Made by a program: the position numbers and the translations under genes. From IMG/VR virus record IMGVR_UViG_3300007712_000061, positions 1 to 27,509 of that record: a DNA stretch of 27,509 nt, one strand, 5' to 3'. This DNA comes from a virus. Shown here piece by piece: positions 1-19,042 of this stretch. The number at the start of each line of letters is the position of its first letter. The first letter of the stretch is position 1. The notes beneath the pieces are model-generated. The model made no database searches and was not told where the DNA came from. It saw nothing but the letters and a program-made list of their open reading frames with translations.

Positions 1-845
1 ACTTTGATATGCCGGTGTTATTCCAGCGCCAAACAGATTGTCGCTTTGTTAGAATAGAAGTTGATCTGCGTAAGTTGCCATGGACGGCTGCTAATCGTGT
101 ATTAGATAGCTTTGTAGATAACGACAAGACAACCGTAGACGACGACGGTACAGAACGACCAGAAAAGGTTGCGTTGAGTAAAACCGTCAAAGCAAAAGTT
201 AGTTCGTCGTTACAAGATGAAATCGTTCTTGAGGGTGACACAGACTCCAATGATGCCGCTACCACAACACCAAACGAACCGCCAGTGGCGGTCTTATCTG
301 CAACCCCGTCAGGAGGAGATATTCCGTTGGTTGTAAACTTTGATGCAGGCGGGAGCTATGATATAGATGGTACAATCGTTAGCTATTCGTGGGATTTCGA
401 TACTGCAAATCCTGGTACTTCGATTGGTGTTGGTAAAACAACAGTTCATACCTATACAACATATGGTGTATATACGGTAACGCTAACAGTGACCGATAAC
501 AAAGGTGCCACGGGACAAGCCACAGTTGATATTGATGTTTCAAACATCGGCCCTAACGCAGTCATCAATGCATTACCAACTGGAGGATTTGTTCCTCTAG
601 AGGTCACATTTGATGGTAGCGGATCTAGTGACCCAGATGGAACTATTGTTTCTTACGATTGGAATTTTGGTGATGGTAATGTTGACAGCGGAGTCAACGT
701 GGTTCACACATATAACAACGGCGGAAGCTATGTAGTCACTCTAACTGTGACCGATGATGGTGGCGCTACCGCTACCGATACAACCAACATTACTGTAAAT
801 ACCACAACTATTTTTACAACAGACTTCGGTCCCGAATTTGAATAA
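1..845 (+). CDS. PKD-domain virion-type protein, 5' end outside window
   Basis: The reading frame is open to the left edge of the window (two more in-frame codons lie before the ATG at 9), so this is probably the C-terminal part of a longer protein. Counting from that ATG, two PKD/Ig-like beta-sandwich repeats follow each other at about residues 91-178 and 180-267. Each shows the typical pattern: a P-x-A-x-I/V start, D-x-D-G-T-I-V-S-Y, then W-D/N-F-D/G, then H-T-Y and V-T-L-T-V-T-D. The first 85 residues are not recognised. PKD repeats in phages usually decorate virion surfaces and may bind glycans or other proteins; that role is inference here. It sits in front of a gp15-like tail gene and is followed after 12 bp by another unknown virion-like gene with an AGGAGC ribosome site, so it is probably part of a late structural operon. 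Confidence 0.8.
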   Translation, partial: FDMPVLFQRQTDCRFVRIEVDLRKLPWTAANRVLDSFVDNDKTTVDDDGTERPEKVALSKTVKAKVSSSLQDEIVLEGDTDSNDAATTTPNEPPVAVLSATPSGGDIPLVVNFDAGGSYDIDGTIVSYSWDFDTANPGTSIGVGKTTVHTYTTYGVYTVTLTVTDNKGATGQATVDIDVSNIGPNAVINALPTGGFVPLEVTFDGSGSSDPDGTIVSYDWNFGDGNVDSGVNVVHTYNNGGSYVVTLTVTDDGGATATDTTNITVNTTTIFTTDFGPEFE

Positions 846-3460: not shown

Positions 3461-3476
3461 GATTTTACGGTCAAAA

Positions 3477-3502
3477 AGAGAGGGGGATTGCTCCCCCTCT
3501 CT
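3477..3502. terminator. Bidirectional intrinsic terminator between convergent genes
   Basis: A perfect 10-bp stem (3477-3486 with 3493-3502, AGAGAGGGGG against CCCCCTCTCT) encloses the 6-base loop ATTGCT. On the minus strand it is followed by five T residues (AAAAA at 3473-3477 on the plus strand, the last shared with the stem). On the plus strand three T residues follow two bases later. It lies between the Nudix gene (+) and gp23 (-), and would end both transcripts, best for gp23. Confidence 0.88.
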
Positions 3503-3528
3503 CCTTTGCTTTACCTACTAACTTCTTC

Positions 3529-4701
3529 TTAGAAGAACGATAGCGTACCAGTGTCGATACCGACCTGCGATAGGTAGTCAGCAGCGTTACCTAGGGAGTT
3601 AGCCGTGTTGGATAGCTCCTGATAGCCGTAACGTGTCATGAAGCTTACTACTGGCTCGAAGGTTGTTGGATCCATTACTGGTCCGGTGCTCATTAGAGGA
3701 ATGTATGGGCAATAGAATGCCGCTGCATCTGTCTCTGTTGGGCCCTTATAGCCTAGTAGAACTGCTGTGTTGTCTGCTGCATACTGGTCAACGTAGACCT
3801 TCATGCTACCATTTAGAACACCAACTAGCTTGGTGTTGGTTGGTGCTTCGAACGTACCTTCAGTCGTACGAGCAAACGAGGATGTCGTTGCACTCTGTAG
3901 GATTGTTAGTGTGTTCGGAGAAACAACCGCCCAGTTAGCTGCGCCACGACGTGTGCGTGCTGCAACTAGGTTGGACTGCTGGTTGATCATGATGGCTAGA
4001 GCAGCGTGCTCATCACCGACGTATGTTGCTGTACCGGAAACTGCGCTCTGGTCGAACGTAGTTGGTGCTGGACCAGCTAGAACACGCAGGTTGTTTAGCA
4101 TCTCCTGATCGATTTCAACTGTGATCTCTTGGGCTAGTGCCTGCATGATCTCAGCTTCAATGTCGATGCCGTGTACTGCCGAAGCGTCCTGTGCAGCCTC
4201 AAATGTCCAGCGAGCCGATAGCTTACGCGACTTGGCTTCTACTGTTTCCTTGAGGATCTGGATGCTTAGGCGATTACCTGGCTGTCCTTCTAGGGTTGCT
4301 GTACCAGCTGCTGCTGGTGCGCTATCGTTCTCGTTACCTGCGTATGCCTTGGCAATGTCGAACGGTCCTAGTGCTTCTGTACCTGCTGCTACGCCTGCTG
4401 CGGTATCAGCATAACGAACACGAAGTGTGTGGATCTGACCTACAGGGCCAGTCATTGGCTGTACGCCAAGGATTTCGTTAGCGATAACCGTCGGCATAAC
4501 ACGACGGATTAGAGGTAGCATTACCTTGTTTAGGGTAGCAATGTTACCTGCTCCTGTTGCGCCGGTGGATGCCGACTCTGTTAAGTGCTTGCGGGTGTTC
4601 TCTAGAACCACACCAAGCGAATCACGGCGGGAACCGGTTAGACCTTCTAGTAGAGCTTCCTTAGTTGCCGCCCACTTGCTTTCAAATAGCTTATTTGCCA
4701 T
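3529..4701 (-). CDS. 23: Major capsid protein gp23
   Basis: 390 residues, shorter than T4 gp23 (521). The family signature is clear: M-L-P-L-I-R-R-V-M-P-T-V-I-A-N-E-I-L-G-V followed by Q-P-M-T-G-P-V-G-Q-I (about residues 61-90), and the C-terminal region with A-D-Y-L-S-Q-V-G-I-D. A likely gp21 maturation site of type L-x-E lies at L40-T41-E42, so the first about 42 residues would be removed in the mature shell; this is inferred from T4. The gene has a strong ribosome site (AGGAGATAAGGAA) and is last in the order gp20, core, gp21, gp22, gp23, before a strong terminator. Leucine codon use is extreme: 28 of 34 Leu codons are CTA, fitting a very highly expressed gene with a dedicated tRNA. Confidence 0.97.
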   Translation of the reverse strand: MANKLFESKWAATKEALLEGLTGSRRDSLGVVLENTRKHLTESASTGATGAGNIATLNKVMLPLIRRVMPTVIANEILGVQPMTGPVGQIHTLRVRYADTAAGVAAGTEALGPFDIAKAYAGNENDSAPAAAGTATLEGQPGNRLSIQILKETVEAKSRKLSARWTFEAAQDASAVHGIDIEAEIMQALAQEITVEIDQEMLNNLRVLAGPAPTTFDQSAVSGTATYVGDEHAALAIMINQQSNLVAARTRRGAANWAVVSPNTLTILQSATTSSFARTTEGTFEAPTNTKLVGVLNGSMKVYVDQYAADNTAVLLGYKGPTETDAAAFYCPYIPLMSTGPVMDPTTFEPVVSFMTRYGYQELSNTANSLGNAADYLSQVGIDTGTLSFF

Positions 4702-11837: not shown

Positions 11838-12686
11838 ATGAGCACACAAAAGAATCCATTAACACAGTTTTATCGTGTTGTAAAGACAACGGTAAAGTTA
11901 CCGTCAAGAGGATTATACTATAAGAAGAACGAAGTTGATTTCAATGAGGATAACGAAGTAGGTATTCTTCCTATGACCGCTGCCGATGAAATCACATTGA
12001 AGAACCCAGATGCGTTGCTTTCCGGCGAAGCTATTGTAAATGTGATTAAGAGCTGTGTTCCTGCGGTCAAAAAGCCGAAGCAGCTTCTAAGTTGCGATAT
12101 TGAAACACTAATCGTAGGCATTCGAGATGCTTCATACGGCGACGATCTTTCAATGGAAATTCGTTGCCCTGAATGTTCACATAATAATACATATTCTTTA
12201 GACTTAGATTCGTTATTAAATCAAACAGAACAGTTAGAAGATGAATATGTTGCCGAACTTTCAAATGATATTCAAGTATATGTGAAGCCCGGAACATTCG
12301 ACGCAACCTTAAAACATCAAAAGATTCTAATCAACAACAAAAAGATTGGACGTCTTGTCGACCAGGATGACATCTCCAATGAGCAGAGGGAGGCGTTATT
12401 AAATAGTGTCTTCAACAGTTTAGGAAAATTACAATACGAATTGATTCTTGATGGAATTGAAAAAGTAGTGTATTTAGACGAAGAAGGCAACGAACAAGAA
12501 GTTACAGAAAAGAGATTTATTGACGATTTCATTCGTAATATCGACGCAACAGAAATTAATAAAATTGAAACAAAATTAAAAGAAGCCAATTCTGTCGGCA
12601 TAGCAAAAGAAATGCCAGCGGTCTGCACAAACTGCGGGCATGAATGGGAGGCAGCTATAGAGTTTAACCCTGTAAATTTTTCGTAG
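11838..12686 (+). CDS. 26: Baseplate hub protein gp26
   Basis: 282 residues, longer than T4 gp26 (208) but of the length and pattern seen in marine T4-like gp26: V-K-L-P-S-R-G-L-Y-Y near the N-terminus, then V-G-I-L-P-M-T-A-A-D-E-I-T-L-K-N-P-D-A-L-L (about 42-62), V-I-K-S-C-V-P-A (about 69-76), and two C-x-x-C knuckles (C-P-E-C near 110 and C-T-N-C near 263) that could bind zinc. T4 gp26 is needed to assemble the central hub. The zero frame ends at 12684-12686 (TAG) just after an A-AAT-TTT heptamer in slip phase. A -1 shift there would add 79 gp51-like residues and give a 360-residue fusion. Late promoter 26 bp upstream. Confidence 0.88.
   Translation: MSTQKNPLTQFYRVVKTTVKLPSRGLYYKKNEVDFNEDNEVGILPMTAADEITLKNPDALLSGEAIVNVIKSCVPAVKKPKQLLSCDIETLIVGIRDASYGDDLSMEIRCPECSHNNTYSLDLDSLLNQTEQLEDEYVAELSNDIQVYVKPGTFDATLKHQKILINNKKIGRLVDQDDISNEQREALLNSVFNSLGKLQYELILDGIEKVVYLDEEGNEQEVTEKRFIDDFIRNIDATEINKIETKLKEANSVGIAKEMPAVCTNCGHEWEAAIEFNPVNFS
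12674..12680 (+). other. Canonical -1 frameshift heptamer A-AAT-TTT
   Basis: The last codons of gp26 read GTA AAT TTT TCG TAG. The heptamer A AAT TTT fits X-XXY-YYZ exactly in the zero frame. A slip back by one base here continues into the frame that codes the gp51-like protein. Possible downstream stimulatory pairing: CCTCC (12704-12708) with GGAGG (12712-12716), nested in AAGG (12700-12703) with CCTT (12724-12727). The tight 3-base loop and the distance from the slip site mean the structure should be tested by folding. Confidence 0.7.
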
Positions 12687-13521: not shown

Positions 13522-13530
13522 TTATGAGAA

Positions 13531-13545
13531 GGCGTCAGTGACGCC
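13531..13545 (+). terminator. GC hairpin after the hub operon
   Basis: GGCGTCA and TGACGCC (7 bp, in practice 5-6 bp with a larger loop) 10 bp after the stop of the upstream gene. No T-run follows, so as a terminator it is weak. It may instead be the first element of the structured region. GTGACGCC (13538-13545) is also an exact complement of GGCGTCAC at 13987-13994. Confidence 0.45.
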
Positions 13546-14150
13546 TAAGTCTTCGCGCTTCGTTACGCTCGTTCTCACTCGCTAACTCATCACTCGACTT
13601 CTTTTTAATTATTGATTGATGTCTATAGTTCTCAATCCTAGGAGTCATGATTCGCCCGTTAGGGGCAAATCATGAAACTATCCTCAATCCTGAGTTAGTC
13701 ATCCAAAGGTCGTACCAAGCTGGGAACTTGTGAGGCGGGCACCATTGACCTCTAAAACCGATTCGTCTATCTACTCGATAGTTATGCCGCGGCCCACATA
13801 CAGCGAAACCCTGGCAATTCTGTATGTGAGTTAGTGTTGTATCTTTTTCTAACAGAGCACTATCCTTTTTAAAGTATCATAGGTCGATAAAGTATAGCCT
13901 CTCATGTGCTAACACAACTCCCTTGCCTCTTAACAAGGGCGCGACAGACCCAGCTGTCTATTGAGGTACACACGAATTCATCCTATGGCGTCACCCATAG
14001 CCTACTCATTACAGAGTAGCGCGTCAACCTACTTACTTCGGAAAAATTTGTTTACGAGAACAGTTTCCAACGCTGTTCAAGGCAGCACCCAGATCTGAAC
14101 AGTCCGCCTTTCGACGCTGCCCTCAAGGGTATGTATTAGGGCTGCTTATT
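13531..14150. ncRNA. Candidate large structured RNA, strand unknown
   Basis: No ORF of 60 codons or more occurs between 13522 and 14277, yet the stretch is full of perfect stems. Examples: 13645-13652/13668-13675 plus 13654-13657/13663-13666, enclosed by 13625-13630/13676-13681; 13707-13711/13747-13751; 13767-13771/13777-13781; 13795-13803/13820-13828 (9 bp); 13828-13838/13911-13920 with one bulge, holding 13856-13860/13906-13910; 13920-13925/13934-13939; 13943-13947/13954-13958; 13983-13988/13995-14000; 14002-14007/14014-14019; 14058-14063/14073-14078; 14081-14086/14116-14121. Several have loops of exactly 5-6 bases and follow one another closely. The size and look recall the ornate phage-linked RNAs GOLLD and ROOL, but identity was not established. 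It lies between convergent genes; no clear promoter was found for either strand. Confidence 0.6.
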
Positions 14151-14159
14151 ATCCATGAT

Positions 14160-14206
14160 TAATGATTTTTGATTTTACTTTAGAGAACCTAAGTAATGAT
14201 TTTTGA
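14160..14206. repeat. 13-bp direct repeat in AT-rich gap
   Basis: TAATGATTTTTGA occurs at 14160-14172 and again at 14194-14206, 34 bp apart. A second pair, CCTGTCA, occurs about 30 bp apart near 14230 and 14260. The rest of 14150-14277 is AT-rich, without an ORF or a recognised promoter. Confidence 0.7.
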
Positions 14207-14277
14207 AAGCCTGTGTATACCATAATTAAACCTGTCACTACTATATATCTATTTTATTTTCCTGTCAGTATAATTCT

Positions 14278-14775
14278 TTAATCCTCGAAAAAGAAAGAAT
14301 TATCTAGTCGAAGAATATCATCAAGCATATAGATTGATGTATCCTTATACCTAATTATGATCGGTAAATCCGTTACGCCATTGTTAAGAACTGCAAGACT
14401 GGTTGTGCGATTATACTTGATAATTAATAGCATCTCTTTTCCGGCTGCCTCAGCATCTTGACGAGCCTGTGCAATCCAGCTGTCCCAGTCACTAATCTTT
14501 TCTGTAAGAATAGCATTAAGATTCGGTGCTGTTTTATAGTTCTTACATTCAATAGCAAACTTAAATTTTCTCGGACATATAAGATCGCCATAGACTGCCC
14601 ATTCAGTATCGTGTGTTTCTGCCCGCTCTAAGTTCTTACCGCCGAAGAATGATCCCGAGTCGGGATTTCTTCTAAAGGCTTGTTCGATACCTGTGTGCTC
14701 TTTAAATCGTGCTGATAATAGGTTGGCGATGTCTCGCTCAAATCGATTGCCCTTTTGTTTTCCATTAACTGCCAT
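14278..14775 (-). CDS. PD-(D/E)XK nuclease, Holliday-junction-resolvase-like
   Basis: 165 residues with the layout of Hjc-like resolvases: K-G-N-R-F-E-R-D-I (catalytic Glu13), a R-R-N-P-D-S-G-S-F segment (36-43), Y-G-D-L with Asp64, and I-E-C-K-N-Y with Glu76 and Lys78. In this fold the E/D/E-x-K residues bind two metals and cut DNA. T4 uses gp49 (endonuclease VII) to resolve branched DNA before packaging; this protein could do that job or be a repair nuclease. It is coupled to the upstream gene by TAATG and lies at the end of the gp47-gp46 recombination operon, which supports a role in recombination. Ribosome site GGAGAGGA. Substrate specificity is inference. Confidence 0.8.
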   Translation of the reverse strand: MAVNGKQKGNRFERDIANLLSARFKEHTGIEQAFRRNPDSGSFFGGKNLERAETHDTEWAVYGDLICPRKFKFAIECKNYKTAPNLNAILTEKISDWDSWIAQARQDAEAAGKEMLLIIKYNRTTSLAVLNNGVTDLPIIIRYKDTSIYMLDDILRLDNSFFFED

Positions 14776-15320
14776 TATAATCCTCTCCGTAATTCTTCTC
14801 GATAAGCGTAGAACATATCTCTTCGAATCTCGTCAACAATGCTCTCCGAATCGTTGTAATGTGAATGAAGTATTTGAGACATTGCTATCGTAGCAATCTC
14901 AGGTTGCGAATATCGAGCACCGCAATCCATCAAACGGTATATATGACTGCCAGTGATACTATCGACACTTTGAGTAAGATGAACATTACCAAAATCAATC
15001 TTACGATCTCGCAGATAAAAATATGCGTGGTCGGTTGTGACCACATAATCGTCGGGATAATGAGCACGAATAATCTGTGTTGTGGTTGTCCTGCTACCGA
15101 TTTCTACACGATTCGGTATAATTCTTGCTCGATGATAAAGTTCTCTGCATTCGTGAATATCATAGACGTACCAATTGTCGAGGTGTCCACCATATTCTAA
15201 ACCGCGAAGAGAAAGTAAAAAGACTAGCTTCTCAGGTATGCGATGATGATAGCTTGCGCCCTCGCTGGTCATGTACCGTTGCGACGAATATTTGCTCGGT
15301 TGTGCGAATTGGTTACTCAT
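14775..15320 (-). CDS. Unknown protein in the recombination operon
   Basis: 181 residues from the ATG at 15320. This start is chosen because AGGACGAGG lies directly before it and it overlaps the gp46 stop by only 8 bases; a start 9 codons further upstream is possible but lacks a ribosome site. The protein is rich in Tyr, His, Arg and Asp, with no membrane segment. Its N-terminal third holds F-L-L-S-L-R-G-L-E-Y, the middle V-V-T-T-D-H-A-Y-F-Y-L, and the end is a charged helix. No family was recognised. It is sandwiched by overlap between gp46 and the nuclease, so it is made together with them; a role in DNA recombination or repair is inferred from position only. Confidence 0.85.
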   Translation of the reverse strand: MSNQFAQPSKYSSQRYMTSEGASYHHRIPEKLVFLLSLRGLEYGGHLDNWYVYDIHECRELYHRARIIPNRVEIGSRTTTTQIIRAHYPDDYVVTTDHAYFYLRDRKIDFGNVHLTQSVDSITGSHIYRLMDCGARYSQPEIATIAMSQILHSHYNDSESIVDEIRRDMFYAYREELRRGL

Positions 15321-17073
15321 CCTCGTCCTGAAACGATGTAAACCCACTTTCCTTTATGACTCGGAGAACGCTGTTCACGCGCCCCACTAGCTCGTCACGA
15401 TGCGAAATGAGGAATATATTCTTTTTATTGTCGCGCGCCATGCGCTTCAGTACCGAGAGCGAACTCTCCACACCAGCACTATCAAGCCCGCTGTCAATCA
15501 GCTCGTCAATGAACAGAAGACTGATTGGCGTGTTGAGGCTCTCGTAGACATCGCGGAACGCCCACGATAGGCTAAGAATAAGACGCGTTCTCTCACCACG
15601 GCTGAGATTATCAAAATCGAGATCCCTGCCATGCTCTTGAATTTCTACCGATAGGTCTGATTGGAATTTTACACTATGCGGCAATCCGATCTTGTCTAAA
15701 TAAGACTCTAACCTTGCATTTAAAAATGCAAGATTTTGGTCAATAATTTTTCGACGTATGAAACTGTCTTTACTGGTTAGAAGTTTGTATAAGAATTCCT
15801 GATGGTCTTTTAATGTGGTAAGGTCATTAATTTTATCAAACGAGATCTCTTGAAGACCCGACTCTTCCAAAGATGTAATTTGTTCTGTGTATGGGTTTTC
15901 TCGAACTGTTTCGCTCTCTAGGCTAGACATCAATGTGTCTAGACTTGTCCGGTGATTATATGCTGCGTCTATGTCGTCGTAAAATGTTTTCGGAAGATCA
16001 CCGACAACAATGGCATCTCTATTTTTTATTGCTTCGGCAATCTCAGCATCGTGTTCAGCGACTTCGGCTTTTAGCTCATCTAAATATTTTTGTGCTTCTG
16101 TCTCTAGCTGACTGTGTTTTTCGTCCTCTAAGTCGTGTCCGCAAGTAGGACAAGACTGTTGCTCTAAGGCAGCGAGGTAGGTCTCCTGTTTAGCGACCGC
16201 TCGCTGAGCCTTTGCCATAGCCGCTTCGTGTCGCTTCAGCGATCTTTCATATCCTTCTTTCTCAGCAATGCGAGCAACAATTTCTGCCGTTTCTTTGTGT
16301 GTTTCTATCTCTTTATCGATGTCAATATTCTGAAGGACAACAATTGCTTCCGCAGTTTCTTCGATAGTCTTTTCGTGCTTCTTTAGCCACGCCGAAGCCT
16401 TGAGCTTGAGAGATTTAATATTTTCTTCAATGCGGCGATTAGCTTCTCGAACCGCGTTGATACGGAACTCTTCTTCTTTAAGATTATCCTTCGTTTCTTT
16501 GAGTAACGTCTTTAAAATCTCAGCTTTTTCACTAAGCTGAGTGATTCCTAGAAGTTGTTCGATAATTGCTCTCTGGTCCCCTGACCTCATACTTAAAAAA
16601 GGTTCGCTATAGGTATTAAGAGCAATAAGAAGTTTGAACATCTGATGGCTTATACCTAAATGCCGTTCCAGTTCCTTTTGAGTTACGCGACTGTCGCCTT
16701 GCGATTCTTCACTATCTTCCGAGGAATATTCGTTACCGGCAATCGAAAAAGAAAACACATTTGGTCGTCTGCCTCTCTCAACCTTGTATTCGATGCCGCC
16801 CTTTTCAAATTCAATCGTGACCACCATATTCTTACCATTTGTTAGATTGATAAGATTGTCTTTTCGAATATTGGTAAGGGCGACGCCGTAAAGAGCATAC
16901 GATAATGCGTTCACAATTGTAGATTTGCCCACACCATTTCGACTATCGTTTCCGCCAAGATCCAAATTCTCGCCAAGGACTAAAACAAGGTCTCGATCAA
17001 CAAAATTGATGCTTTGTGTTACTTGACCGACACTAAGGAAATTCTTAACTGTTATATTCTTGATGTTAATCAT
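15313..17073 (-). CDS. 46: Recombination endonuclease ATPase subunit gp46 (Rad50-like)
   Basis: 586 residues (T4 gp46 has 560). SMC/Rad50 architecture in order: Walker A G-V-G-K-S-T (47-52) after an insert-bearing loop beginning G-E-N at 34; a coiled coil; a zinc hook C-P-T-C near the middle (about 311-314); a second coiled coil; an ABC signature L-S-R-G-E-R-T-R-L; Walker B L-L-F-I-D-E-L; a D-loop S-G-L-D; and an H-loop I-S-H. With gp47 it forms the Mre11/Rad50-type complex that resects double-strand ends for recombination-dependent replication. Its ATG overlaps the gp47 stop by four bases (ATGA), a sign of coupling. Confidence 0.97.
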   Translation of the reverse strand: MINIKNITVKNFLSVGQVTQSINFVDRDLVLVLGENLDLGGNDSRNGVGKSTIVNALSYALYGVALTNIRKDNLINLTNGKNMVVTIEFEKGGIEYKVERGRRPNVFSFSIAGNEYSSEDSEESQGDSRVTQKELERHLGISHQMFKLLIALNTYSEPFLSMRSGDQRAIIEQLLGITQLSEKAEILKTLLKETKDNLKEEEFRINAVREANRRIEENIKSLKLKASAWLKKHEKTIEETAEAIVVLQNIDIDKEIETHKETAEIVARIAEKEGYERSLKRHEAAMAKAQRAVAKQETYLAALEQQSCPTCGHDLEDEKHSQLETEAQKYLDELKAEVAEHDAEIAEAIKNRDAIVVGDLPKTFYDDIDAAYNHRTSLDTLMSSLESETVRENPYTEQITSLEESGLQEISFDKINDLTTLKDHQEFLYKLLTSKDSFIRRKIIDQNLAFLNARLESYLDKIGLPHSVKFQSDLSVEIQEHGRDLDFDNLSRGERTRLILSLSWAFRDVYESLNTPISLLFIDELIDSGLDSAGVESSLSVLKRMARDNKKNIFLISHRDELVGRVNSVLRVIKESGFTSFQDEDE

Positions 17074-18089
17074 AGGCTATTATATATCTTCATTAATGTG
17101 GATTTATCGTATGTTGAACTTTCGACGGCGTTTAATTGTTCGGTAACAATCTGATCGACGGTTTCAAACTTAATGTCCCCTGGAGTTGTATCTTGTTCTA
17201 CATTATCTCGAATTGGAACAAGCTTCAGCTCTCTCATATTATATTCTTCAGCAAATGTCTCACGTAAGAAGGAAGCTTCCTCATATGAAATGTCGACATC
17301 AAGTGTGACCTTGGCATAGGTGTATTCGTTGAGATATTTCGCTGGGTCTTCTAACAGTTGACTAAGATTTAAAGAGATGTATCGTGGACCTTCTTCCCAA
17401 TTAACATATTCGGGTTCTTTTCCCCATTCTAAAAACATCGCCCCTCGGTCTGTATCCCAAACATCAGCATAATTATGACCGAAGGGATTGCCAATATAGT
17501 GTACCTTGCCATTGGTTTGTCGTTTATGAAAGTGTCCAGAGAAGACATAGTCTTGATGTTTGAAATGCTCTTTCTTCAGTCCGCCATGATCAGGCATCTC
17601 CACAAGCGCATTCATCTTGAAATAAGGCAGCTCAAAGTGACCAAAGATATATTTTGTTTTAAGCTTGGTCATTTGCTTCCATTCTTCGCCTACTAGCCAC
17701 GGAACGATGGCTACATCGTCTTGAACAAGAGGCTCGTCAACTAACACGATATTCGGAAACTTATCAGCCATAGGAAGCGAATGTAATTCACGCTTCTCTT
17801 TGTAATAGAGATCATGATTTCCGGTAATGAAATATACCGTTTCAAATGCACTATCAAGAAGACTTAGCGTCGATAAAGTATAGTTAAGAGTTGTGACATT
17901 GATGGATGCACGATGGTGATGCCAATCACCAAGGAAGATACAGGTCTCACAATTACGACTTTTTGCTTCATCAATAAACCACTTCACAAACCGCATACAA
18001 TCTTCATTATGAAGGCGAGAGTTATGTTTTAGTCCAAAGTGAATATCCGTGAAGGCTGCTAGATTTTTAAATAATTGGTTATTCGACAT
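17070..18089 (-). CDS. 47: Recombination endonuclease nuclease subunit gp47 (Mre11-like)
   Basis: 339 residues, the same length as T4 gp47. Calcineurin-like phosphoesterase motifs in order: T-D-I-H-F-G (Asp15, His17), L-G-D-W-H-H-H (Asp55), T-G-N-H-D (Asn91, His92), G-H-F-E (His151) and S-G-H-F-H (His186, His188). These residues bind the two Mn ions of Mre11 nucleases. The partner gp46 follows with a 4-base overlap. A sigma70 promoter (TTGACA-17-TATACT) ends 46 bp upstream, so the operon is expected to be transcribed early by the unmodified host polymerase. Confidence 0.97.
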   Translation of the reverse strand: MSNNQLFKNLAAFTDIHFGLKHNSRLHNEDCMRFVKWFIDEAKSRNCETCIFLGDWHHHRASINVTTLNYTLSTLSLLDSAFETVYFITGNHDLYYKEKRELHSLPMADKFPNIVLVDEPLVQDDVAIVPWLVGEEWKQMTKLKTKYIFGHFELPYFKMNALVEMPDHGGLKKEHFKHQDYVFSGHFHKRQTNGKVHYIGNPFGHNYADVWDTDRGAMFLEWGKEPEYVNWEEGPRYISLNLSQLLEDPAKYLNEYTYAKVTLDVDISYEEASFLRETFAEEYNMRELKLVPIRDNVEQDTTPGDIKFETVDQIVTEQLNAVESSTYDKSTLMKIYNSL

Positions 18090-18134
18090 TTATATTTCCC
18101 ACTCTTTCCAACCTTTGTGTGTTTGCCTTTGAAT

Positions 18135-18163
18135 AGTATACAACAGATTATCTGTAATGTCAA
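18135..18163 (-). promoter_or_regulatory. Sigma70 promoter for gp47-gp46 operon
   Basis: On the minus strand TTGACA (18163-18158), a 17-bp spacer, then TATACT (18140-18135). It lies just upstream of gp47. A start of transcription near 18128 would give a leader of about 40 bases. Confidence 0.85.
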
Positions 18164-18170
18164 AACAACA

Positions 18171-19013
18171 CTAAACATCGTCTCCATTTAGAGTACTCTC
18201 TCGCAATCGTCGAATAGACTCTTCATGTTCGATTTGCTTGGAGAAGCTTGGTGTTTGACCAGAGTCAATCAAAATTTCATCTCGAATATTCTGATTCTTC
18301 TTTTCAAGATTTTGAACTCGGGTAAACGCATGATAGATTGACTGAGTGTAGTATGCAAATGGGTTATCACTTTTTGCCTCATTGAACTGAAGCCCCATTG
18401 AAGAAAGCTGTAAAAGGCTTTGTCCTTTCATTTCATCAATATAGGAATAACCTCGCCAATTAGATAATTGGCTATAGCGTTCTACTAAGAGCATAAACAT
18501 CCTTGCAAGCTTGTCAGTCATATTGCCGTGAGACTGAGAGAACTCTCCGTTCTTAGAATGACTACGCCCAACTTCTAAGGCTTCATTATTAACAATGATG
18601 TAATGCTTAAACGGAATAAAATTTAATCTAACATGGTGCTCGGCTTCTTTCTTTGGGTTCTTCTTCCTGCCCGGATCCTTCGGAATATGATCATAGGTAA
18701 TAACACGATATACAAGACTATCGATATCTACTTCAGACGAGTCATATCGATATTCTGCAAGTTTCGGCTTGCCACTAGCTGGCCCAGTGTAATTCTTAAG
18801 ATCGGTTCGATATGCTTCTTGAGCAGTTCTTTCGGCACGATTGTCACGTGCCTGTTGCTGTATTTCAGCATTAAACATATCATTAAAGTCGTCGAGAATA
18901 ATGTCGTATTGGCTGTATTTTTCATCTGTAAATTCACAAAACGAACACTTGCTCTTGTGAATCTCTTTTAATATGTCTCTATTATTTAAATAATTGGTCT
19001 TTTGAGTGGACAT
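18171..19013 (-). CDS. 55: Late sigma factor gp55
   Basis: 280 residues. The C-terminal two thirds match T4-type gp55: an L-A-R-M-F-M-L-L-V-E-R-Y helix, Y-I-D-E-M-K-G-Q-S-L-L-Q, N-P-F-A-Y-Y-T-Q-S-I-Y-H-A-F-T-R-V (the sigma region-2-like core helix that binds polymerase and melts the late promoter), and a tail with I-R-D-E-I-L-I-D-S-G-Q-T-P-S-F-S-K-Q. T4 gp55 has 185 residues; this one is longer with an extra N-terminus holding C-S-F-C. The start at 19013 is chosen over the ATG six codons upstream because AAGGAGGAG stands directly before it. It is read from a consensus sigma70 promoter, as expected for an early-made switch to the late GATAAATA promoters found throughout this window. Confidence 0.93.
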   Translation of the reverse strand: MSTQKTNYLNNRDILKEIHKSKCSFCEFTDEKYSQYDIILDDFNDMFNAEIQQQARDNRAERTAQEAYRTDLKNYTGPASGKPKLAEYRYDSSEVDIDSLVYRVITYDHIPKDPGRKKNPKKEAEHHVRLNFIPFKHYIIVNNEALEVGRSHSKNGEFSQSHGNMTDKLARMFMLLVERYSQLSNWRGYSYIDEMKGQSLLQLSSMGLQFNEAKSDNPFAYYTQSIYHAFTRVQNLEKKNQNIRDEILIDSGQTPSFSKQIEHEESIRRLRESTLNGDDV

Positions 19014-19042
19014 ACTCCTCCTTATAGTCATAGTATCTTGTA

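Follow-up and report, generated by a model that had tools for sequence, protein, structure and literature searches.

A predicted structured RNA gene family in a noncoding gap of T4-like phages

The window analysed here, a stretch of 27,509 nucleotides of viral DNA, belongs to a T4-like phage with homologues of Gp23, portal, prohead protease, baseplate protein, gp46 and gp47 and with a late sigma factor. Between two convergent genes it contains 756 bp (13522-14277) overlapped by no ORF of at least 60 aa, and the question is what this gap encodes. A previous sequence-only reading had described it as lacking an ORF of 60 codons, which was confirmed, and had proposed a structured noncoding RNA, of a known class or a new one, giving no strand. 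Stop-to-stop frames in the gap reached at most 68 codons, and a tRNA scan of the window (ARAGORN) returned none. Only a small number of large structured RNAs are known from phages, GOLLD and ROOL among them, and what they do has yet to be settled. Another family, unrelated to these, with a mostly fixed location next to core T4-type genes and a probable copy in Atu_ph07, a cultured phage of the laboratory strain Agrobacterium C58, would offer a tractable system for studying their role, and an unannotated RNA gene would be present across a sizeable set of uncultured phage genomes. At the edge of the window (9-845) a PKD-domain protein is encoded.

Comparative structure of the core

Local hairpins were abundant in the gap, as had been claimed, e.g. 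at 13675-13645, 13939-13920, 14000-13983, 14019-14002 and 14077-14059. That such stems exceed chance on energy grounds was not borne out. Folding of 13522-14160 gave z values of -4.4 for the plus and -3.3 for the minus strand (20 shuffles), and the predicted RNA at 14235-13580 gave -1.95 and -1.87, respectively (40 shuffles), the two pairs of values differing in the number of shuffles and, slightly, in the stretch folded; six coding stretches of the same window ranged from +1.0 to -4.0. Folding energy was therefore rejected as evidence for the RNA, a z of about -1.9 being no better than that of the window's coding DNA. The sequence-only reading had taken an energy no better than that of shuffled sequence as counting against an RNA; such an energy was indeed nearly obtained, yet it proved uninformative. 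Neither hairpin count nor folding energy distinguishes the gap, and comparison was decisive.

Relatives of the window were gathered with the PDDEXK nuclease as bait. The minus strand of the window could be aligned with L002 and L004 across most of the gap, and a core was common to the window, L025, L027 and L054. From an alignment of six core sequences (A5), the helices d, e and m and the pseudoknot helix p were written down (Table 1). Standard pairs made up 98.6% of the pair cells, and two-sided changes were found in 18 cells against 6.9 in shuffles (0/500), so that the proposed check for covarying stems in homologous gaps gave a positive outcome. Partners slid by 1-3 columns paired in at most 51%, a control that favours the A5 structure since the structure had been derived from these same sequences. 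In the window's relatives the pair types of helix p were GC, CG, UA and AU, UA. Two long-range pairings suggested earlier, 13707/13751 and 13828/13920, are not the conserved ones, which join 13752-13750 with 13734-13732 and 13830-13823 with 13800-13793. An RNAalifold run on three sequences had yielded several long-range pairs that were unsupported by later data and were discarded.

A second alignment (A7), which gave the better, independent test, comprised 24 other phage contigs, apparently marine, and was made with MAFFT with no reference to structure; these contigs came from a short-pattern scan and had been recognised as carriers of the core by the covariance model of the six A5 sequences. 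A blind helix search in A7 returned d, e, m and p again; 99.4% of the pair cells were standard, 89 two-sided changes were counted against 24.4 in shuffles (0/500), and helix p was formed in 24/24 sequences. Covariance models were built from the six A5 sequences, the window included (R1), and from the 24 A7 contigs alone (R2). Although it contained no window sequence, R2 detected the window at 13867-13723 on the minus strand with 50.5 bits (E 1.4e-10). Covariation was also seen in 38 aligned matches, an alignment that had been fitted to the structure and is hence biased. The G-U pairs counted in this alignment favour the minus strand, as they would become A-C on the opposite one. The covariation in the relatives and in the 24 other sequences supports the earlier proposal of a structured noncoding RNA: comparison demonstrates that the minus strand of 13522-14277 bears a member of a predicted structured RNA family whose core has been maintained in T4-like phages through compensatory changes. 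That this prediction corresponds to a real RNA gene family is almost certain.

Table 1. Positions of the predicted RNA gene, its elements and its neighbours in the window
Feature	Position	Strand	Remarks
Predicted RNA gene, length about 620 nt, 5' end near 14240 and 3' end near 13620	13620..14240	-	both ends are estimates; noncoding throughout
Promoter-like element CTGACA, 17 nt, TATAGT	14240..14268	-	10/12 matches; overlaps GATATATAG
5' element ACTTAGGTTCTCTAA	14180..14194	-	common to window and L002
5' domain motif CCCTTGAGGGCAGCGTCG	14112..14129	-	conserved in L002 and L004
5' domain hairpin AACAG-CGTTGGAAA-CTGTT	14059..14077	-	in L002/L004 loop letters kept, stem changed
Two successive hairpins, 14019-14002 and 14000-13983	13983..14019	-	also in L002/L004, with changed stems
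Conserved core of RNA family	13723..13869	-	R1 121 bits (window in R1 training set); R2 50.5 bits
Helix d, 13862-13858 with 13836-13832	13832..13862	-	comparative; loop TGCTCTG...GAAA.AG...CAACA nearly invariant
Helix e, 13830-13823 with 13800-13793	13793..13830	-	comparative
Helix m, 13790-13784 with 13742-13735	13735..13790	-	comparative; encloses hairpin n
Hairpin n	13781-13767	-	inside helix m; read by eye, misaligned by MAFFT
Pseudoknot helix p, 13752-13750 with 13734-13732	13732..13752	-	crosses helix m
3' hairpin 13675-13645, then tail ATGACTCC...	13625..13675	-	conserved among core loci
PDDEXK / RusA-like nuclease gene	14278..14775	-	PF24608 3e-24; phrog_244 6e-22; directly upstream of RNA
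Convergent genes, 76 aa and 201 aa	12689..13521	+	kept in relatives; without family match
T4-type baseplate gene	11838..12686	+	PF12322 6e-24; second syntenic anchor
gp46, gp47 and late sigma factor gp55 genes	15313..19031	-	upstream on the RNA's strand
Palindrome AGGCGTCACTGACGCCT	13530..13546	.	after convergent gene; read from sequence

Extent and genomic position of the RNA gene

For the 5' end of the RNA the estimate relies on a promoter-like box that closely follows the nuclease gene, for the 3' end on the hairpin and tail conserved there. The sequence GATATATAG at 14249-14241 (minus strand) resembles the T4 late-promoter box; the promoter-like element carries little weight alone, since four such sites were found in the region against 2.2 expected. 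Upstream of the core, loose late-promoter boxes were present in 12/33 loci against 2.3 in shuffles (maximum 6). The strict consensus TATAAATA was found in 1/33 loci, the same as in shuffles, only the looser box being enriched; TATAAATA occurs upstream of the core in L132. A promoter box was missing from most typical loci of a larger set, so that transcription there may continue from the nuclease gene into the RNA. The RNA might be made in middle or late infection, along with the gp55-gp47-gp46-nuclease cluster or shortly afterwards.

Among members the 5' part varies, while the core and the 3' hairpin are conserved. A remnant of the 5' domain motif, CCTTGAG...AGATACTGG, could also be observed in L027 and L054. 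A hairpin followed by a TATGR-like tail was present in 36/38 core loci against 44/400 control windows. The fold would begin with a 5' domain that differs between members, followed by the core with its pseudoknot and by a 3' hairpin whose tail is conserved. A terminator scan revealed no intrinsic terminator with a T run at the 3' end of the RNA. Transcription from either side might possibly end at the palindrome after the convergent gene, to which the terminator scan gave no score.

About 35 distinct loci showed, after the nuclease gene, approximately 400 to 2200 bp in which conserved proteins were largely missing, and beyond this stretch a gene encoding about 70 aa together with a baseplate gene of T4 type on the opposite strand; some of these loci have additional small genes in between. 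The order in many loci from a pattern scan was gp46, a small nuclease gene, the RNA, a gene of about 190 aa, gp26 and a homologue of the window's 732-aa protein. In many loci of the larger set the RNA lies about 100 nt downstream of a co-directional nuclease gene, often of SegE-type GIY-YIG rather than PDDEXK. Such a SegE-type GIY-YIG endonuclease (PF19835) is directly upstream of the RNA in L090, L098, L123 and L160, where the window has PDDEXK.

The RNA probably acts in trans. Because the window's downstream gene is convergent, the RNA has no gene to lead, which argues against a cis-regulatory leader such as a riboswitch or RNA thermometer and for action in trans; some relatives do have a same-strand gene downstream, so that the argument against a leader applies to the window's own locus. 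Since the RNA persists where its neighbours differ in strand and family, and since the flanking gene is on the other strand in several genomes, the RNA appears to be an independent transcript from a gene of its own. Six loci, L101, L166, L132, L136, L109 and L152, have their upstream gene on the opposite strand; this gene is a PDDEXK relative in L101 and L166 and a frame of 179-232 aa of no known family in the other four. These arrangements speak against the RNA being a structured 3' UTR of the nuclease operon, which would stabilise or end the gp46/nuclease mRNA or from which a small RNA would be cut, a reading to which the position directly downstream of a co-directional nuclease, in the window and in many relatives, and the lack of a promoter box in most typical loci of the larger set would otherwise point. 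It is further opposed by the switch of nuclease family from PDDEXK to SegE GIY-YIG while the RNA stays, by the probable copy in phage Atu_ph07, which lies about 19 kb from the PDDEXK gene of that phage, and by a structure far exceeding the size of a terminator. A 3' UTR is unlikely as the overall explanation; where the RNA directly follows the nuclease, such a role is possible.

Distribution and comparison with known RNAs

The core was found in over a hundred virus sequences, mostly uncultured and related, including about fifteen relatives of the window phage. Among the matches listed of a pattern scan with TGCTCTG...GAAA.AG...CAACA, 94 of the first 100 contigs tested carried the core, the six without it being L167, L168, L177, L180, L184 and L185; the pattern has further matches beyond those listed. 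A pattern comprising the whole motif of the group that includes the window occurred in three contigs only. Coding noise had been considered as a reading of the pattern matches and was rejected, as the covariance model showed most of them to be true homologues. Most of the pattern-scan contigs are apparently marine, although contig names give no habitat; other carriers would be jumbo phages. The cultured jumbo phage Atu_ph07 gave a weak match at 490110-490269 on the minus strand (17.6-18.9 bits, E 0.03-0.04). This match falls where no genes are annotated. Its sequence, when read, forms helices d, e and m, and GGGTACAGGACAACCGCC matches L039. Atu_ph07 therefore probably carries a copy of the RNA; the paper describing the phage makes no mention of noncoding RNA (PMC6102473). 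Isolate phages, searched at the nucleotide level with the window gap and the relatives' RNAs as queries, gave no match, a 40-nt motif query gave chance matches only, and the models matched neither the large jumbo contigs G298-G302 nor Campylobacter phage NCTC12673.

GOLLD, ROOL, OLE and group I/II introns had been named as candidate classes. A search with Rfam 15 (cmscan, permissive threshold) gave no match at the locus in the window (E up to 1) or in 33 relatives, so the core is none of these; the few Rfam hits listed in the window and its relatives were weak and outside the RNA. One of the weak matches in the window, to PrrB/RsmZ at 3473-3583 on the minus strand, at the end of the gp23 gene (26.2 bits against a gathering threshold of 44), is a GC hairpin with a T run and resembles an ordinary terminator. 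ARAGORN detected neither tRNA nor tmRNA near the RNA, whether in the window or in the 23 loci to which it was applied.

GOLLD is known to form a 14-mer RNA cage. It is phage-borne, its 3' region is conserved and its 5' region less so, and one marine member is known (PMC12286853). The predicted RNA is also phage-borne; its core and 3' hairpin are conserved and its 5' part varies, which may or may not correspond to the division of GOLLD, as the sequence is unrelated. It has no Rfam match to GOLLD and no tRNAs nearby, and it is smaller than many GOLLD RNAs, whose length exceeds 800 nt. ROOL, an RNA of phages and prophages with a solved example of 659 nt, has a complex fold with pseudoknots, its function being an open matter (PMC12286853). 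The predicted RNA shares with ROOL its phage-borne nature, a comparable length and a pseudoknotted complex fold; unlike ROOL, which is often near tRNA islands, it has no tRNAs nearby and no Rfam ROOL match, and it mostly occupies one position, next to gp46/nuclease and gp26. OLE, described in the same source (PMC12286853), differs in that its Rfam covariance model matched neither the window nor the relatives. The RNAs manA, wcaG and PhotoRC-II are structured RNAs of marine cyanophages, manA and wcaG occurring in T4-like ones (PMC2864571). They resemble the predicted RNA in being structured RNAs carried by marine phages; however, all three are in Rfam, yet were unmatched, and they are named for associated genes, whereas the next gene of the window RNA is convergent.

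The RNA is classed as a new family among large structured phage RNAs, outside GOLLD and ROOL, subject to a caveat concerning the motifs IMES-1 to IMES-4. These are RNA motifs reportedly obtained from marine metagenomes in 2009, and the core is common in marine-looking contigs. They are the main threat to the novelty of the family, but that the RNA has already been described outside Rfam, notably as one of these motifs, is judged quite unlikely.

Outside phages, the core was detected in a few alphaproteobacterial genomes. Two copies are present in Terasakiella pusilla DSM 6293 (40-52 and 31 bits) and one each in G180, G602 and G068, about 1000 bacterial genomes having been searched. None of the plasmids searched with the Terasakiella copy carried it. 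Gp23 was not found in the Terasakiella genome, a result that leaves its absence unproven, as the control also matched nowhere. One Terasakiella contig contains a resolvase and a transposase. Bacterial core copies lie at L236:2822-2977, L242:1501-1646, L238:1501-1622, L241:1501-1626 and in L244, Terasakiella pusilla being among the genomes concerned, and some of them are near recombinases. In L236 and L238 the frame just upstream has, by eye, a similar peptide end (..WLL.ILERTE..).

Bacterial copies near a resolvase, transposase or tyrosine recombinase, together with a nuclease of the PDDEXK or SegE GIY-YIG type adjoining the RNA in many phages, might suggest that the RNA is one half of a mobile or nuclease-linked element, either intron-like or a guide or cofactor RNA of the adjacent endonuclease. 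Such an element is very improbable: the Rfam intron (group I/II) and HEARO models were unmatched, the RNA lies between two complete genes and interrupts none, the type of nuclease is inconstant and the upstream genes of L132, L136, L109 and L152 have no family match, and the place in the phage genome is mostly fixed and not scattered. Decayed gene remnants or an unconstrained spacer with chance hairpins, to which the folding z of about -1.9, like that of the window's coding DNA, would lend itself, were refuted for the core 13869-13723 by the compensatory changes, the conserved noncoding position and the cross-detection at E 1e-10, and their probability is practically nil.

Proposed role and other RNAs of the same slot

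Overall, the best explanation is rather likely to be a structured RNA gene in its own right, acting in trans as a partner-binding scaffold. For the scaffold role taken separately, the chances are slightly short of even. The nearly invariant loop of helix d suggests a conserved partner. The RNA scaffold may present this loop to that partner during takeover or late infection; the partner could be a protein of host or phage, the ribosome or a second molecule of the RNA itself. Tentatively, the family might constitute a class of trans-acting RNA that is new to the literature. Its carriers would be T4-like phages, many of them apparently marine and others jumbo phages, and in rare cases mobile DNA of alphaproteobacteria; its pseudoknotted core would show the nearly invariant loop to a conserved host target during infection.

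Further RNA-like sequences were observed in the same slot. An RNA of about 430 nt, cluster C2, was found in L212:1090-1600 and relatives (L038, L046, L047, L055, L058, L066, L067, L217, L219, L223, L230, L232 and L234); it is covarying and occupies the same slot in most members, while in L075/L076 its position is a different one and it is encoded on the other strand. In 16 C2 sequences, 90.8% of the pair cells were paired, and 81 two-sided changes were counted against 25.7 in shuffles (0/500). Members searched gave no Rfam match. Like the core family, C2 has a AAAAAGGAT run before the first hairpin and, in 11/15, a 3' hairpin with a TATGR-like tail, and common descent of the two is possible. 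Models R1-R3 matched none of clusters C2 and C4, L003, L005 and L015, and none of these is claimed as a member. Cluster C4 (L011:4870-5180, L030, L033, L052 and L057) is a conserved noncoding block in the same slot with the motif CACTGCGATGAGCAGTCC. The regions of C2 and C4 and a third one, in L005, might be either diverged members or replacements; the last, L005:4517-6716 (also in L006-L009), comprises about 2 kb without a conserved gene and contains a 28-nt match to the window's d hairpin.
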